Below are positions 14,857 through 21,594 of a DNA stretch of 22,769 nucleotides, in pieces. A program made the position numbers and the translations under genes. Origin of the DNA: a virus. A model generated the notes under the pieces. That model saw only the letters and a list, made by a program, of their open reading frames with translations. It was not told where the DNA came from and made no database searches. Position 1 is the stretch's first letter; every line of letters begins with the position of its first letter. The stretch covers positions 1 through 22,769 of the IMG/VR virus record IMGVR_UViG_3300021085_000236; one strand, given 5' to 3'.

Positions 14857-16838
14857 CCGACCTTAAACTTTTTAAACATTGTTTTCGCTTCTACTAGATT
14901 ACCTTTTGCGTGATAATTTCTTAATAGAATATTTTTATCTGCTATTAGAGTGTACCCTGCTGCCATTGCCGCATCAAATTTTGTTGTTTTACTTATATCA
15001 AATCCTAACCAGTCTTTTAATAATTCCGGAAAGCATACTCTTTCTATATTATTTTCTATATATTCTTCAGTCACTTCTGCTATTTGTTGATGTGTTCTCA
15101 CAGACCCACTCATACCAGGTTTAGCACTACCAGGCAAGTACATCAAAAACGAAGCATAACCTCTATCTTCAAAGTAATTCTTTATACCTATCTTGTTATC
15201 TTCAAAAAGAAGTTGACAAGAATAATAGTGACAGCACTTTAAAACATCTTCATAAAATTGTCTTGCGGTACTTGGTCGGTAAATGTATTCAACTATGAAC
15301 GAACTATCATAAAAATTTGATACTGAGTTGTGCTTCTTGTACACATAGAAGGCTCCATTAGATCTTCTTTGGTCTACAGTACTGTCATGATCATATGGAT
15401 CACAACCTATAACAAATTCATTCTTTCTTGTAGGTAAATAATTTTTACCTCTTTTTATAACATTATTTGCGTCTTTTTTATCGTCAAACAAATAGGTTAC
15501 ATTAAACCTTCCGTTTGACATGGGCTTAAATTCTACATGCCCTGTCTCTCTATCTCCAACCCATTCAAAATTACCTTTTGTATAAAGGTTTTCATTCCAA
15601 GAAATACGATCTATTTGATCATTTAACTTCATTGCGTTAAACAAAGATCGTTCACCGTCTATCCTAAAAGCCTCTTCAATAGTGAACGGATTCCTTCTAA
15701 TAATACTTGAAAGAGCACGATCATCATTGACAAGATTTGCACGTTCAGCCAAATAATAGTCCTTAGCACGTTCTTCATCTGCTTGACCATATTTATCGAA
15801 GTATAAGGTTTTATATGAGGGAGTAAAGAATCGAAATAATCCACTGGGAGTTCTACCATGAGCATTTCTATCTTCCTGGTTACTGTTGTCCCATAATCTT
15901 TTAAATGACTCACCACCTGATTCCATTTCCTCGACAGTGGTTGTGTAAAGTAACTTTCCAATATACTCCCCATCCAATTCCGAACAGAAACGTACAACGT
16001 TATGCCTTTCCCAGACATCCACTTCCATAGTTTTTCCAACCTCGTCACCAAGGTATCTGTGTAATTTTGTTCCATCATATCCGTATTTTTCTGAACTCTT
16101 CCAATCTATTTGGCTTTCAAGTTCTGGTTTTCCTAAATCTTCTAAAGATTTTTTTCCTCTTTTTGTAGTTCTATAAAATCTTAATTCTGAGGTTGGGGTG
16201 ACCCCTTTTGATTGATCGTATACAGGTCTAAAAAAGTCAGGCAGTTTCTTAAAAGGTCCTACTATAGACTTTGCAAATACATTGTTTTTTGCGTCACTTG
16301 CTGTCTTAGATTGTATACCACCGTTCTTATTTTTAGATCTTGATATTAAGTCAAACATAAATACACCTGCTCTCACTGTTTTACCTTGCCTACGCTTTGT
16401 TAACTCAATCATTCCTAGAGAGTTAGGGTCATCGATAGATGCTTGTAAAAAATAAAAATAATCTTGATCTACTTTTCTAAAACTAGGATACCCAATATCA
16501 ATCTTCCACCAGTTTAAAAACAAATAGTGCATCCCAGTCAGGTATTCAGCCTTACCATTATTCATGAACCAAACCCCATTTAATCTTCTATCCCATTCCT
16601 GTGATCTAAAGTTTTCCAACTCTACATCAAAATAATCTTTATCCTCTGCTTGCCTTATTAACTCTTCTTTTCTCTTATAGTTATAACTTTCAGGGAGCAT
16701 AGTCCTAATCCATACCTGATCTTCCTTTTTCGAAGCACTAGTTATGATTGGTCTTTTTTCAAATTCTTTAGATATTACATTATAAACTTTACCTACAGGA
16801 GGTAATGTAAAATCTACACCTTGTATATTTATTGTCAT
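14853..16838 (-). CDS. terL: Large terminase subunit (packaging ATPase and nuclease), 661 aa
   Basis: It drives DNA translocation into the prohead and cuts the concatemer. The ATPase domain shows Walker A TKRRQGKT (147-154), Walker B RYLGDE (261-266) and a TTT coupling motif (299-301). The nuclease domain has the RNase H-like acidic set: D480 in FVIGCDPYDHD, E546/D547 in QLLFEDNK, and D622 in TKFDAAMAAGY. All key residues are present, so it should be active. An N-terminal extension contains LTGMHYLFLNWW (100-111), a pattern I associate with terminases of Bacteroidota phages. The gene overlaps the upstream gene (ATG 16838, stop 16835) and the portal (stop 14853, ATG 14856), which indicates translational coupling. 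It ends with TGA, so that codon is not reassigned. Confidence 0.95.
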   Translation of the reverse strand: MTINIQGVDFTLPPVGKVYNVISKEFEKRPIITSASKKEDQVWIRTMLPESYNYKRKEELIRQAEDKDYFDVELENFRSQEWDRRLNGVWFMNNGKAEYLTGMHYLFLNWWKIDIGYPSFRKVDQDYFYFLQASIDDPNSLGMIELTKRRQGKTVRAGVFMFDLISRSKNKNGGIQSKTASDAKNNVFAKSIVGPFKKLPDFFRPVYDQSKGVTPTSELRFYRTTKRGKKSLEDLGKPELESQIDWKSSEKYGYDGTKLHRYLGDEVGKTMEVDVWERHNVVRFCSELDGEYIGKLLYTTTVEEMESGGESFKRLWDNSNQEDRNAHGRTPSGLFRFFTPSYKTLYFDKYGQADEERAKDYYLAERANLVNDDRALSSIIRRNPFTIEEAFRIDGERSLFNAMKLNDQIDRISWNENLYTKGNFEWVGDRETGHVEFKPMSNGRFNVTYLFDDKKDANNVIKRGKNYLPTRKNEFVIGCDPYDHDSTVDQRRSNGAFYVYKKHNSVSNFYDSSFIVEYIYRPSTARQFYEDVLKCCHYYSCQLLFEDNKIGIKNYFEDRGYASFLMYLPGSAKPGMSGSVRTHQQIAEVTEEYIENNIERVCFPELLKDWLGFDISKTTKFDAAMAAGYTLIADKNILLRNYHAKGNLVEAKTMFKKFKVG

Positions 16839-17431
16839 AAATTTGCTATAAATTCTGGTGTCAACCTTTTATCTGCTTTTATGGTTTTTAATAATTCTTG
16901 ATCTTCACCATAAAGTTTCATGTAGTAAGAATCTAACCTGTCATTTATAGTATTCAGGTCATCCATTATTTTAGACTTAATTTGTAAAGCCTGCAATATA
17001 TCTTTATCTCTTTCGCCCTCAACTGGACTCAATAATTTAGTTTGATACTCAAAGAATGTTTGCTCATTTGAAACTATCATTGACCAAATTCTATTATTTT
17101 GTTTTCTTAGAAACTCGTCAACCATCTCAACTAGTTTTGAATTTGTAAAGAAAAATATTTGATGTAATGCCTCAGCATCTTTTGTTATGTTATAACCCGA
17201 CAACTCTGCTGCTTGTTCTTTTCTTATTTTTAAATCAGGAAACTGTTCTTTTAGTGGAGTATTTTGATCGTACATGTAAAGTACATATGCAATTAGTTGA
17301 TCCTCAGCAGATTGAAATGTTTTAAACATTTTCATCTTAGGATACTTCTTTTTTATAGACCCTCTGACCTTAAAGGGACTGAAGATCATTTTATTAAAGT
17401 CTTCAGAATTGAAGATTTCTGTTAATGACAT
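16835..17431 (-). CDS. Candidate small terminase subunit, 198 aa
   Basis: It lies immediately upstream of the large terminase with an ATGA overlap, the standard place for the DNA-recognition subunit. The N-terminal half contains a helix-turn-helix-like segment (LKIRKEQAAELSGYN, about residues 65-80 of this start). The C-terminal half is long amphipathic helix suited to ring oligomerisation (DILQALQIKSKIMDDLNTIN, then DRLDSYYMKLYG). I chose the ATG at 17431. An in-frame ATG at 17503 would add 24 residues, but that extension falls in the divergent promoter region and has no supporting features. The 17431 start has the same AAAACCAACAAT leader as the gene at 9995. No characteristic active-site motif exists for this family, so the call rests on context and fold. 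Confidence 0.62.
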   Translation of the reverse strand: MSLTEIFNSEDFNKMIFSPFKVRGSIKKKYPKMKMFKTFQSAEDQLIAYVLYMYDQNTPLKEQFPDLKIRKEQAAELSGYNITKDAEALHQIFFFTNSKLVEMVDEFLRKQNNRIWSMIVSNEQTFFEYQTKLLSPVEGERDKDILQALQIKSKIMDDLNTINDRLDSYYMKLYGEDQELLKTIKADKRLTPEFIANL

Positions 17432-17574: not shown

Positions 17575-17820
17575 ATGGCACTACATCAAGGTAAGAACGT
17601 TACGCTTAATAAAATTATGAAGTCGGAACGAGCAGCAAAAAAAAGTAAGGTTTACGTAAAAAAACCTAACGGAAAGGTTACTGTTGTTCACTTTGGTGAT
17701 CCTAACATGAAGATTAAGAAAAACATCCCTAGCAGAAGAAAATCTTTCAGGGCTAGACATAAATGCGACAACCCAGGTCCTAGATGGAAAGCAAGATACT
17801 GGGCTTGTAAAACATGGTAA
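17575..17820 (+). CDS. Small basic protein with FGDPNM and RRKSFRARH motifs, 81 aa
   Basis: First gene of the rightward cassette. It is highly basic, with a beta-strand pair and motif YVKKPNGKVTVVHFGDPNM (27-45), then RRKSFRARHKC (54-64), NPGP (66-69) and a terminal WKARYWACKTW (71-81). I recall this motif combination from many marine phage genomes and from the ends of larger virus proteins, where it is an uncharacterised domain. Here it stands alone as almost the whole protein. The two conserved cysteines (C64, C78) with nearby H62 could bind a metal or nucleic acid, but that is inference. The function is unknown, and DNA or RNA binding or a virion role are both possible. Confidence 0.85.
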   Translation: MALHQGKNVTLNKIMKSERAAKKSKVYVKKPNGKVTVVHFGDPNMKIKKNIPSRRKSFRARHKCDNPGPRWKARYWACKTW

Positions 17821-17828
17821 AATAAAAT

Positions 17829-18113
17829 ATGGCACAGAAAATCAGTGAATCAACAGAGGTGCAACTCGACTTAAAAACTATTGGGGTTATAATTGGCTTT
17901 GTAATTAGTCTTGCTACAGTGTTTTTTACTTTAAAAGCAGATATTGCTTTAGCAAAAGAACTTCCAAAACCTCCAATAACAAGATCAGAATACGATCTAA
18001 AGGATCAGTTGGTAAGAGAGCAAATAATGAATACAGGTGCTCAAGTATTGGAAAATGGAAAGAAGTTGGATCTAATAGAAGAAAGATTATATGAACTTAG
18101 TATAAAAAAATAA
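17829..18113 (+). CDS. Small single-pass membrane protein with helical tail, 94 aa
   Basis: After a short polar N-terminus (QKISESTEVQLD), one hydrophobic segment spans about residues 17-36 (IGVIIGFVISLATVFFTLKA). It is followed by PKPPITRSEYDLKDQLVREQ and a charged coiled helix to the end (ENGKKLDLIEERLYELSIKK). This is an N-out or N-in single-pass membrane protein with a soluble helical domain. It lies 8 nt after the FGDPNM gene and 6 nt before a gene with a signal peptide, so two consecutive products are envelope-directed. A holin or spanin-like role is possible but unsupported, since no endolysin is visible in this window. Confidence 0.82.
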   Translation: MAQKISESTEVQLDLKTIGVIIGFVISLATVFFTLKADIALAKELPKPPITRSEYDLKDQLVREQIMNTGAQVLENGKKLDLIEERLYELSIKK

Positions 18114-18119
18114 TTTATT

Positions 18120-18470
18120 ATGAAAAATGTATTCTTTGGCATTTTATTGCTATTCTTCCCCTTAAACTCTAACTCTGTAAGGAGTAATGTTTCAAAAAGT
18201 GAAAAGGTTAGTAAAATTGTAGTTTATCAAATAAACTCAGAGTGGAATGAAAGGAATTCAATAAAAAACCTAGATGATTTAAGAGGTTGTAAATATGTTT
18301 ACGGATATTTAGAAGATCAACCTGATGTTTTTAAAGAAAAAATTAAATCTGTTCCTGCTGTCTTTATTACTAATAACGGTAAAATTGTCTATAAGTATCA
18401 ACCAGGAGTTTCATTAGTTCCAACAATTAAAAGATCACAAATTCAAGAAATTGTAAATAAACATAGATAA
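18120..18470 (+). CDS. Secreted thioredoxin-fold-like protein lacking CxxC, 116 aa
   Basis: The N-terminus is a short signal peptide (KNVFFGILLLFFPLN, residues 2-16), so the product probably enters the periplasm or is membrane-anchored. The mature part follows a thioredoxin-like order. A strand (KIVVYQI, 32-38) leads to W42 in SEWNERNS, where active thioredoxins have WCxxC, then come YVYGYLEDQPD (59-69) and KSVPAVFITNNGKIVYKYQPG (76-96). V78-P79 fits the conserved cis-proline position. Both redox cysteines are absent and only one cysteine (C57) remains, so it is unlikely to be an oxidoreductase. I recall similar inactive proteins in marine phages. The function is unknown, and binding of a periplasmic partner is the simplest idea. 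Confidence 0.75.
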   Translation: MKNVFFGILLLFFPLNSNSVRSNVSKSEKVSKIVVYQINSEWNERNSIKNLDDLRGCKYVYGYLEDQPDVFKEKIKSVPAVFITNNGKIVYKYQPGVSLVPTIKRSQIQEIVNKHR

Positions 18471-18473
18471 AAT

Positions 18474-18746
18474 ATGGACGAAGAAAAAATTAAAAGACTC
18501 AAGGAAAAAATAGCCTACTTAAGAAAGATGGGTAACGAAGAAAAAGCCATGAATCTTGAAAGAAGAATCAAACAAGCAGCGATCAAAAAAGAATATAAAG
18601 AAACCAGAACACCTTCTAAAGTCGGAAAGGTTTTACGCAAAATTAAGAAAGGTGTATCTAATGCTGCTAACACTGTAGTTAATGAGGTTAAAGAAACTGT
18701 AGACACAGTAAAGAAGGTTAAAAAAGCAAAAAAGGAAAAAAAATAA
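18474..18746 (+). CDS. Lysine-rich helical protein, 90 aa
   Basis: About a third of the residues are K or R. The first 45 residues form a charged helix (EEKIKRLKEKIAYLRKMGNE, then KAMNLERRIKQAAIKKEYKE). A short TRTPSKVGKV break follows, then a second helix with GVSNAANTVVNEVKETVDTV and a pure Lys/Ala/Glu tail. The second half resembles amphipathic, apolipoprotein- or LEA-like repeats. No enzymatic motif is present. Plausible roles are DNA condensation or an internal virion protein, both inferred only from charge. It starts 3 nt after the previous stop and ends 2 nt before the next start. Confidence 0.78.
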   Translation: MDEEKIKRLKEKIAYLRKMGNEEKAMNLERRIKQAAIKKEYKETRTPSKVGKVLRKIKKGVSNAANTVVNEVKETVDTVKKVKKAKKEKK

Positions 18747-18748
18747 TC

Positions 18749-18823
18749 ATGGCATATTCAAAAATCAAAAAAAAGTGTAAGTGTGGTAAACCATATAGTA
18801 AATGCACTAAATGTGGTAAGTAA
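18749..18823 (+). CDS. 24-residue four-cysteine zinc-knuckle-like micropeptide
   Basis: The sequence is MAYSKIK followed by KKCKCGKPYSKCTKCGK, with cysteines at 10, 12, 19 and 22 (CxC-x6-CxxC, each pair followed by or near glycine), as in a treble-clef or zinc-ribbon half. Nine of 24 residues are lysine. It is embedded in the operon: the ATG comes 2 nt after the previous stop, and its own stop overlaps the next start (TAATG). The gene packing, cysteine spacing and clean in-frame fit argue that it is real despite its size. Inferred role: a metal-binding nucleic-acid or protein-interaction peptide. Confidence 0.68.
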   Translation: MAYSKIKKKCKCGKPYSKCTKCGK

Positions 18824-19053
18824 TGGCAGCCAAAAGAGACTATAAAGCAGAGTACAAAAAGTTTCAGTCATCACCTAAGATGATTAAGTACAGAACCATA
18901 CTGAAAAAGTACAATAGAGATAGAGGTACTTACGGTAATGGGGATGGTTTAGATGCATCTCATAAAAATGGTAAAATTGTTGGTTTTGAACCATCAAAAA
19001 TAAACAAGAGCAGAAAAGAAAAAAGCAGACTAAAAAAAACAAACAACAAATAA
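18823..19053 (+). CDS. Conserved small basic marine-phage protein, 76 aa
   Basis: The pattern KRDYKAEYKKFQSSPK (4-19), RGTYGNGDGLDASHKNGK (34-51) and KSRKEKSRLKK (62-72) matches a family I recall from many marine phages. Relatives carry a D-x-D/S-H-x-N/D-G core that resembles part of an HNH fold. Here the core is DASHKNG (44-50), but zinc-binding cysteines and the full HNH set are absent, so nuclease activity is not claimed. The start overlaps the stop of the micropeptide gene (TAATG), which implies coupled translation. The function is unknown. Confidence 0.82.
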   Translation: MAAKRDYKAEYKKFQSSPKMIKYRTILKKYNRDRGTYGNGDGLDASHKNGKIVGFEPSKINKSRKEKSRLKKTNNK

Positions 19054-19055
19054 TT

Positions 19056-19205
19056 ATGAGCAACACTGTAGAATTAAGAAAAACGGAAAAAAAGGATCAT
19101 TTCAGACTTTTAATAAATGGAACCGATGTAACTGGAGAACAAGAAAAAGGAACATTCAGACATATACTAGAAGTAGTAGACAAGGGAATTGATTCTGGTA
19201 ATTAA
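19056..19205 (+). CDS. Small hypothetical protein, 49 aa
   Basis: It starts 2 nt after the previous stop and keeps the operon's spacing. The sequence is mixed alpha/beta (STRAND-like HFRLLINGTDVTGEQEKGTF at about 15-34, then helix RHILEVVDKGIDSGN). Its beta-hairpin plus helix could be a tiny standalone fold. No cysteine, signal or membrane segment is present, and I do not recognise a family. It is included because it fills the only frame between two well-packed neighbours. Confidence 0.65.
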   Translation: MSNTVELRKTEKKDHFRLLINGTDVTGEQEKGTFRHILEVVDKGIDSGN

Positions 19206-19216
19206 AATTATTAGTT

Positions 19217-19354
19217 ATGAGTAAAATGATAAAACGTAAAGACGGTAGTTACTCTAAGAGAGGATTATGGGATAATATACGAAACGTAAAGAATCCTAAA
19301 AAAGGACCCTCAAAAGAAATGATCAAACAAATAAAGAAAATTAAAAATAAATAA
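19217..19354 (+). CDS. Small basic hypothetical protein, 45 aa
   Basis: The ATG follows the previous gene by 11 nt, and the stop precedes the next ATG by one base. The product is strongly basic: KMIKRKDGSYSKRGLWDNIR followed by NVKNPKKGPSKEMIKQIKKI. A single tryptophan (W18) lies in the first half. Lys/Arg clusters at both ends suggest nucleic-acid contact. Small proteins with a KDGSYSKRGLWDNIR-type start occur in phages in my recollection, but no function is known. An alternative internal start at M4 would shorten it by three residues. Confidence 0.65.
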   Translation: MSKMIKRKDGSYSKRGLWDNIRNVKNPKKGPSKEMIKQIKKIKNK

Positions 19355-19355
19355 T

Positions 19356-19532
19356 ATGGCAGATCAAATAGTCTCTATAACAGATCAACAAACCGTTGAC
19401 GTATTAGCAATAAGAAAAATAGAAGTACTATTAGATGTACTGGCTGCTTTAGAAAATTCAAATGCACCTGAACTTTATGGTGTTAAAATTACTGTGATCG
19501 ACAAGATTGAGCGAGCAGTAAGTAATCTATAA
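19356..19532 (+). CDS. Small acidic helical protein, 58 aa
   Basis: Last gene of the rightward cassette and the only acidic one. The sequence starts MADQIVSITDQQTVDVLAIR, continues through a helix rich in L, V and A (KIEVLLDVLAALENSNAPEL), and ends YGVKITVIDKIERAVSNL. Heptad-like spacing of hydrophobics (I18, V23, L25, L28, L32) suggests a two-helix or coiled-coil oligomer. No family is recognised. Its last six bases overlap the end of the convergent gene at 19527, so the two operons run tail to tail with no spacer and no visible hairpin terminator. Confidence 0.65.
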   Translation: MADQIVSITDQQTVDVLAIRKIEVLLDVLAALENSNAPELYGVKITVIDKIERAVSNL

Positions 19533-20346: not shown

Positions 20347-20451
20347 CTAATATTTATCCTTCCAGTCATCTGGAAATAATATTTTACCAATTTGTTTTCC
20401 TAAACCTGCTACGATCATGGCTACCATAATCCATCCTAGTGCTTCTATCAT
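20347..20451 (-). CDS. Micro membrane protein, 34 aa
   Basis: The sequence MIEALGWIMVAMIVAGLGKQ places a hydrophobic helix at residues 3-18, followed by an amphipathic, partly basic segment and an acidic tail (IGKILFPDDWKDKY). The ATG overlaps the stop of the PD-(D/E)XK gene (ATGA), and its stop is two bases before the next start. This strict packing on both sides supports a genuine gene too short for standard gene callers. The function is unknown. Confidence 0.68.
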   Translation of the reverse strand: MIEALGWIMVAMIVAGLGKQIGKILFPDDWKDKY

Positions 20452-21011
20452 ATTATTTGATTTTCTGTTGTTGCTAAATCGGGGGTGACATATCTATACT
20501 GTCGCTTATCAATCTTGTACTCGTAATATTTATTTCTATCATTGATTGTAACCACATTCCAATCCTTAATTTTATCCTTTTTAAACCTCAATAAAATGTA
20601 TCTGTGGTCTGATAAAAACAAAACAAATAAGACATAATCAACATCTAACTTATCTATGGTAAACATATTCACCTTCAAAGATCTCTCACAACCCTTTACA
20701 TCAATCCTCTTTCCATCAACAATTAAATCTGGATCACTTACACCCTTCTCTTTTACGAATGCTGAGGTAGTATAATTAACCCCTTTTAAATCAAAATGAT
20801 GCCTTACTAAAAGTTCACCCAATATACCTTTGAAGTCTGTGTAGAACTCATTATCTACAGGTTCATCAAATAATATAGGGTGCTTGTACTTGTAACTTCT
20901 AGACTTCCAATAAAGTTTTTTGTAGTGGTCACGATTTGCCATGACTCTTGTGTCAACATATAATCTTGCGTGTTCAAAAATACACTGTGGTATTTTATAG
21001 ATTTCCTCCAT
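20448..21011 (-). CDS. PD-(D/E)XK-fold nuclease, 187 aa
   Basis: The restriction-endonuclease-like core is readable. E66 in KGILGELLVRHHF sits on the first helix, P94-D95 in SDPDLIVDGKR on one strand, and D104-V-K106 in RIDVKGCER on the next, followed by strands MFTIDKLDVDYVLFVLFLSD (116-135). The three metal-binding residues and the catalytic lysine are all present, so an active Mg-dependent nuclease is likely. Family-level function could be DNA degradation, recombination or repair. The short spacing and small size resemble phage-encoded nucleases and not full restriction enzymes. It overlaps the GroES-like gene by 17 nt and the micro membrane gene by 4 nt. Confidence 0.84.
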   Translation of the reverse strand: MEEIYKIPQCIFEHARLYVDTRVMANRDHYKKLYWKSRSYKYKHPILFDEPVDNEFYTDFKGILGELLVRHHFDLKGVNYTTSAFVKEKGVSDPDLIVDGKRIDVKGCERSLKVNMFTIDKLDVDYVLFVLFLSDHRYILLRFKKDKIKDWNVVTINDRNKYYEYKIDKRQYRYVTPDLATTENQII

Positions 21012-21594
21012 TTAGAATCTTTCCTAATATATCGTCTTGTTTCATTACATAATAATCCTTACCCTCGATCGTATTAAGAAATGCATTCCTTTCATGAAAT
21101 CGTACAGTGTCACCGTTAACTAACCCCAAATCATCCTCGCCAGATATGGGTGTACCTATGAACCTTAAGTTACCCTCTTCTTCGCTCCGAGTGGGTACCC
21201 CAATGTAAATAGAACCTACCATCTCCTCGATCATAATGGGTTCAATTAAAACATGATTGGAAATAGCAGTTAAACTTCCCCCTCTCAAAAAGCAGAAGCA
21301 CTCTTCTAAGTCAACAAGATAAATGTCCTTTTCGCCAAATACTAGATTGTCCTCCTGCACTGTTAAGTAGTTGAAGTAGACTAAATCGCCTGTCTGCAAC
21401 TCTTGTTTCAAAAACTGTCCTCTTGTATTTTTACACCATTTCCCTCTAGGTAAAGCCACGACACTTCCGCATATGGTAACGTGCTCTTCTGGACTCCAAG
21501 TAACATCTAAATAAAGTTTTCCTGTAGAAAACTCAACTTCATCGTTATATTTCTTTGTGATCTTAACCGCTATTTTTTGACCAATCATATTCAT
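20995..21594 (-). CDS. Tandem GroES-like co-chaperonin, 199 aa
   Basis: The C-terminal half (about 107-195) reads as a GroES barrel. NHVLIEPIM (113-121) opens it, an EEMVGSIYIGVP segment (123-134) corresponds to the mobile-loop region, VNGDTVRFHERNA (159-171) follows, and the end DYYVMKQDDILGKI (180-193) parallels the usual YLIMKEDDILAII. The N-terminal half (6-106) looks like a second, more diverged barrel (GQKIAVKITKKY, SVVALPRGKW, TGDLVYFNYL, DIYLVDLEECFCFLRGG). At 199 residues it is twice the length of bacterial GroES. Family knowledge: phage co-chaperonins such as T4 gp31 replace host GroES to fold capsid proteins. No GroEL gene is visible, so use of the host chaperonin is inferred. First gene of its operon. 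Confidence 0.75.
   Translation of the reverse strand: MNMIGQKIAVKITKKYNDEVEFSTGKLYLDVTWSPEEHVTICGSVVALPRGKWCKNTRGQFLKQELQTGDLVYFNYLTVQEDNLVFGEKDIYLVDLEECFCFLRGGSLTAISNHVLIEPIMIEEMVGSIYIGVPTRSEEEGNLRFIGTPISGEDDLGLVNGDTVRFHERNAFLNTIEGKDYYVMKQDDILGKILNGGNL

Follow-up and report, generated by a model that had tools for sequence, protein, structure and literature searches.

A single-copy polycationic micropeptide gene in a phage small-gene cassette, with a four-cysteine tail exchanged among relatives for lysine-rich tails

The window, that is, the whole stretch of DNA analysed here, is a 22.8-kb record (22,769 nt) of an uncultured marine phage in which the terminase, portal and head-like genes all lie on the minus strand. 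A run of small genes on the plus strand, most of them lysine-rich and hereafter called the cassette, is oriented divergently from these (Table 1). The large terminase shares 31–32% identity with those of Flavobacterium phages and of an uncultured podovirus, and a flavobacterial host is therefore likely. No family match was obtained for the presumed small terminase subunit (TerS), whose label rests on its place. An Rfam search gave no match in the window. The Bacteroidetes -7 motif TAnnTTTG was not enriched, occurring 41 times against 32 expected, a count as high as this being reached in 9 of 100 shuffles, and no promoter was called.

Table 1. Coordinates of the micropeptide gene, its parts and its neighbours in the window
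Feature	Position	Strand	Remark
Presumed small terminase subunit, TerS	16835–17431	-	named by position
Micropeptide cassette	17575–19532	+	micropeptide gene once per complete relative cassette
81-aa small basic gene	17575–17820	+	homologues in unrelated marine phages
116-aa protein	18120–18470	+	signal-peptide-like start; SVPAVFI segment
90-aa lysine-rich gene	18474–18746	+	directly upstream of micropeptide gene, 2-nt gap
Micropeptide gene, 24 aa	18749–18823	+	purifying selection, 16 distinct relatives
Head MAYSKIKK, codons 1–8	18749–18772	+	alignments A1, A2
Cys4 tail C10-x-C12-G-K-x-Y-S-x-C19-x2-C22, probable metal site	18776–18814	+	Cys invariant in 16/16 distinct sequences
76-aa basic gene, PHROG 6437	18823–19053	+	directly downstream of micropeptide gene, 1-nt overlap
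r187	20448–21011	-	neighbour used as query
199-aa protein	20995–21594	-	weak GroES-like C-terminal region

The 76-aa gene is widespread among marine phages, cyanophages included, and homologues of both this gene and the 81-aa gene were seen in unrelated marine phages, namely those of Pelagibacter, Roseobacter, Methylophilales and Flavobacterium and cyanophages. The 90-aa gene gave no Pfam match above the cut-off and no significant match in PHROG or NCBIfam. The SVPAVFI segment of the 116-aa protein recalls thioredoxin folds, but without a CxxC, and the protein had no match in Pfam, PHROG or NCBIfam and no homologue among cultured phages. The GroES-like region of the 199-aa protein was detected with an NCBIfam E-value of 1e-5, below the cut-off; in Elemovirus phages of flavobacteria, GroES/GroEL lie in the vicinity of the homologue of the 76-aa gene.

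The micropeptide, MAYSKIKKKCKCGKPYSKCTKCGK, has the cysteine layout C10-x-C12-x6-C19-x2-C22 (cysteine codons at 18776–18778, 18782–18784, 18803–18805 and 18812–18814). Its TAA stop codon (18821–18823) overlaps the ATG start codon of the 76-aa ORF by a single base, giving the sequence TAATG. The ORF, its CxC-x6-CxxC motif and its junctions with both neighbours are exactly as described in a first-pass annotation of the window, which had proposed an easily missed gene for a metal-binding micropeptide, locked into an operon.

Relatives were first gathered with the neighbouring genes as queries, so that this part of the sample is independent of the cysteines; a pattern scan, in which the cysteines were required for inclusion, then added more loci. 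Over 22 codons of 16 distinct nucleotide versions, pooled pS was 0.615 and pN 0.057 (pN/pS 0.093), 17 of the 26 variable columns fell at third codon positions, and the amino-acid conservation was matched by none of 2000 column shuffles. All four cysteine codons were intact in each of the 16 versions. The comparison of cysteine spacing and synonymous bias in related phages, which the first-pass annotation had suggested as a check, hence came out in favour of the gene. Frameshifts at this place had been named as evidence against it, and one was indeed found: in the contig L002, near-identical to the window, one extra A in the AAAAAAAA homopolymer run breaks the frame. As the frame is intact in L003, a near twin of L002, this insertion is probably an assembly error. 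Judged from these sequence comparisons, it is nearly certain that 18749–18823 is a real gene, and its conservation in relatives marks it as genuine and under-annotated.

The 2-nt gap upstream and the TAATG overlap downstream could also be taken to suggest a leader ORF for translational coupling, in which translation itself matters and the peptide does not. The low pN/pS ratio argues against this, since it is the amino acids that are conserved, and so does the position of the gene among relatives. In the window and in its nearest relatives it lies between the 90-aa and 76-aa genes, whereas it is found directly 3' of the 76-aa gene in L029, L033, L036 and L040, directly 3' of the 90-aa gene in L015, L113 and L094, and 3' of inserted genes in L004 and L014, and the TAATG overlap is present in only some versions. 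The gene is thus mobile within the cassette, with variable overlaps, and the proposal that it is locked into an operon has to be given up, as neither the gap nor the overlap is conserved. A gene that shifts relative to its neighbours while its peptide stays is very improbable as a mere coupling device.

A second collection of relatives was obtained via r187 and TerS rather than via the peptide and pooled with the earlier loci, which gave 110 loci with complete TerS-to-downstream cassettes, 38 of them unique. Slot peptides were defined as ATG-initiated ORFs of 18–32 codons with a Tyr at one of positions 1–5 and a Lys/Arg content of 33% or more, and exactly one such ORF was present in every one of the 38 unique cassettes. 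Because the rule was devised after the peptides had been inspected, the controls carry more weight than the count: 1.23 cassettes were expected by shuffling, and no ORF satisfied the rule in antisense or in about 200 kb of flanking DNA (both strands). Moreover, small four-cysteine ORFs occurred in 30 of the 38 cassettes, where dinucleotide shuffling predicts 0.03, 25 of the 30 being the micropeptide and five a separate Cys4 ORF. The ORF is very short and A-rich regions readily yield lysine-rich ORFs, which might suggest a product of chance; nevertheless, the single copy in each cassette, the rarity of small Cys4 ORFs in shuffled sequence and the pN/pS ratio leave a chance ORF with a negligible probability, and the conservation already refutes it.

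Four cysteines are present in 25 of the 38 slot peptides and none at all in the other 13. The tails comprise 23 with CxC-x6-CxxC, two with CxxC-x6-CxxC (as in MAYGKIKKKKRCKTCGKMKSSCSSCKKY), four of a Lys-Pro type (for example MSYPRIKKVKPKPKPKPKPRPKY) and nine of a poly-Lys type (for example MKKYKKIKKVKTKKKKKQKKSSYNY); another Lys-Pro relative reads MTYAKIKKVKVKPKTSKPKSKY. The peptides measure 20–31 aa and bear a net charge of about +9 to +14. The first-pass annotation had regarded relatives without the four cysteines as an argument against its reading, and the 13 cassettes with a homologous-looking peptide, just as small and basic but devoid of cysteine, partly realise that case. As the cysteine-less peptides give no sign of decay, the four cysteines represent one version of the tail, and the gene is not defined by them.

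The tails are exchanged between relatives. On the r187 tree the cysteine and non-cysteine forms interleave: the best tree requires about five switches of the Cys4 label, and well-supported branches make two of these unavoidable. The position immediately 3' of the 76-aa gene is occupied by a Cys4 form in L029 and L033 and by a Lys-Pro form in L022, L031 and L032. Besides, the incomplete cassette of L017 contains a Cys4 form and a Lys-Pro form together, and the two may accordingly be distinct genes, one of which as a rule substitutes for the other. Tyr3, Lys5, Ile6 and Lys7-8 of the head are common to the window peptide and its Lys-Pro-tailed relatives, and the head common to cysteine and non-cysteine forms amounts to only about 5–6 residues. 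Several unrelated cassette genes also start with M-x(1-5)-KIKK (L014, L021, L032, L113 and L227), perhaps as a consequence of A-rich codons following the initiation codon. So short a shared head, together with similar starts elsewhere in the cassette, weakens the argument for homology, and common descent of the cysteine and non-cysteine forms is no more than plausible.

With regard to the four cysteines, the first-pass suggestion of a metal site gained support. Among the Cys4 forms seen, the cysteines are either invariant or re-spaced and never fewer than four: the Cys4 form of L017 reads CxC-x6-CxxxC, that of L227 (MAYGKIKKKKRCKTCGKMKSSCSSCKKY) follows the CxxC-x6-CxxC pattern given above, that of L305 is likewise re-spaced, and the distant peptides of L132, L148 and L158 read CxC-x5-CxC. 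Retention of four cysteines despite altered spacing fits metal ligands, and disulfide pairing is less likely since the peptide has no export signal. The tail is therefore likely, as far as sequence can tell, to form a metal knuckle, which would most simply hold one ion, most likely zinc, with its four cysteines.

Searches of Pfam, PHROGs v4, NCBIfam and PDB sequences returned no family match for the Cys4 forms, and PHROGs v4 none for the Lys-Pro and poly-Lys forms. A tblastn search of cultured phages with the 24-mer was likewise without a match, although the low-complexity filter of BLAST may have hidden one, and literature searches retrieved no paper on the micropeptide. Three leads were discarded: zf-Paramyx-P (E 0.014, below the cut-off) was judged a chance similarity, a scan of bacterial and archaeal genomes gave a single chance match in an open frame of nine residues that is not part of any ORF, and a relaxed CxCGK pattern scan retrieved mostly unrelated proteins and unsupported frames. 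AlphaFold, run on a 33-residue read-through on account of its length limit, gave a weak model (pLDDT 67) with a predicted helix at residues 3–13, for which no structural match was found.

The nearest look-alike is SEC-C, known from the SecA zinc tail and YchJ (PDB 1tm6, 1sx0, 1ozb, 9l6b). In both motifs CxCG, Lys, Tyr and the third Cys follow in equal order, about 13 residues separate the first and last ligands, and SEC-C is autonomous at 22–27 aa; the solved structures of 22-residue SecA-tail peptides (1tm6, 1sx0) indicate that a motif so small can stand alone. The micropeptide nonetheless falls outside SEC-C, since it has CxC-x6-CxxC instead of CxC-x8-C(C/H) with a GSGKKY core, lacks the SG insert, and has CxxC, not CC or CH, at its third and fourth ligands. 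An origin from SEC-C (PF02810) was not supported, and none of 11 members gave a Pfam SEC-C match at E-values up to 10. The likeness also brings up the idea of a host-takeover peptide, whose knuckle would dock on a specific host protein or the ribosome like the SecA zinc tail, with the basic residues merely assisting. Although CxCG-K-x-Y-x-x-C of the micropeptide resembles CxCGSGKKYKQC and hhalign aligns the two, it does so with a probability of just 16.6% and with a different cysteine spacing, and the substitution of Lys-Pro or poly-Lys for the entire cysteine tail would abolish a specific docking surface. We consider such a role quite unlikely.

The nearest kinds of system are the Haloferax C(P)XCG micro-proteins and the small CxxC proteins of haloviruses. 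A small zinc protein of the CpXCG type with a basic helix provides an architectural precedent: HVO_0758 of Haloferax, with 56 aa and two C(P)XCG motifs, has proven zinc binding (PMC10716476). Like the micropeptide, it is a tiny single domain with four cysteines split between two short motifs and with a basic stretch at the N terminus, which is helical in HVO_0758 and weakly predicted as helix in the micropeptide. In contrast, the micropeptide is phage-borne, has 24 aa and CxC plus CxxC, and displays no sequence relation to it. It lies outside the C(P)XCG class (two such motifs, fewer than 70 aa), as the window form has CxCG plus CxxCG and the forms of L227 and L305 have CxxCG plus CxxC. HF1-like haloviruses and AFV1p06 provide many small CxxC proteins of unknown function that carry putative zinc motifs (PMC7230728). 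Unlike the micropeptide, these are larger and come from archaeal viruses; this comparison is by motif alone. A retroviral-type zinc knuckle (CX2CX4HX4C) does not describe the micropeptide either, which has no histidine and four cysteines spaced 1-6-2.

The features common to all forms, very short length and strongly positive charge, suggest that the peptide binds nucleic acid or some other polyanion. We favour the reading, with a probability of roughly 0.55, that this genuine single-copy gene encodes a polycationic micropeptide, most probably nucleic-acid-binding, whose tail is folded by a Cys4-bound metal here and is of Lys-Pro or poly-Lys type in sister lineages; nucleic-acid binding as such is plausible. 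The peptide would bind its polyanion during infection or in the virion, with phage DNA, host RNA or polymerase, or packaging in virions as candidate targets. In the window lineage the C-terminal half would fold round one metal ion through four cysteines within about 13 residues, while in sister lineages an unstructured Lys-Pro or poly-Lys tail would do the same cationic job, tails of either kind following the same kind of head, M-x-Y-x-K-I-K-K. We tentatively entertain, as a possibility of lower standing, that this is a single gene slot whose tail switches over short evolutionary times, so that zinc knuckle and disordered polycation are interchangeable. As a special case of polyanion binding, a protamine-like peptide packaged with DNA inside the virion is suggested by the high charge of +9 to +14 on a chain of 22–31 aa, by the vicinity of the small basic proteins to the terminase genes and by the one copy in every relative. 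That the cassette and the genes for terminase, portal and head are transcribed divergently speaks against such a peptide, and it appears unlikely.

For the favoured polycationic peptide, the main interest lies in a conserved single-copy slot in which cysteine-knuckle and plain polycation tails alternate, more than in the small size of the putative zinc peptide. The locus provides a clean, selection-supported phage gene of 20–31 codons that standard annotation missed and that is absent from every family library searched. If tail exchange holds true, it is a natural experiment on the purpose of a minimal zinc knuckle; the peptides are short enough for synthesis, and metal binding, nucleic-acid binding and tail equivalence are thus directly testable.

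Other tiny peptides were noticed in relatives. A second, separate Cys4 micropeptide of 25–30 aa with no Lys-rich head and a CxC-x7-CxC pattern (MNKIENPCECGNMTVDTCNCKEKKK and variants) lies directly after the 81-aa gene in L249, L281, L284, L285 and L286, and in these genomes the slot peptide is of the poly-Lys form. L132, L148 and L158 (for example L158:2344–2436), a phage group with 36% terminase identity and 43% identity in the 76-aa gene, encode a 30-aa peptide, MAYGKPKGPRVVKKKCKCGKPKACGCKNSY, that is perhaps distantly related to the one in the window. Among nine stretches of cultured or named phages with homologues of the 76-aa gene, the 81-aa gene or the large terminase, the only convincing peptide was gp57 of Pelagibacter phage Kolga EXVC016S (L320:4245–4343; MAYKKKKGAAGKACWKGYRRAGAKKCVKIKKR), an annotated 32-aa product located 4 nt 3' of a homologue of the 81-aa gene. 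This merely possible relative is tiny and basic with an MAYKKKK head but has two cysteines only and a tail unrelated to that of the micropeptide. A further tiny Tyr/Lys peptide, MYGAKKPTKKNTKNTKKKGTKKSYKK, is encoded at L078:1302–1382; both it and the Kolga peptide, though from unrelated phages, lie beside a homologue of either the 76-aa or the 81-aa gene.
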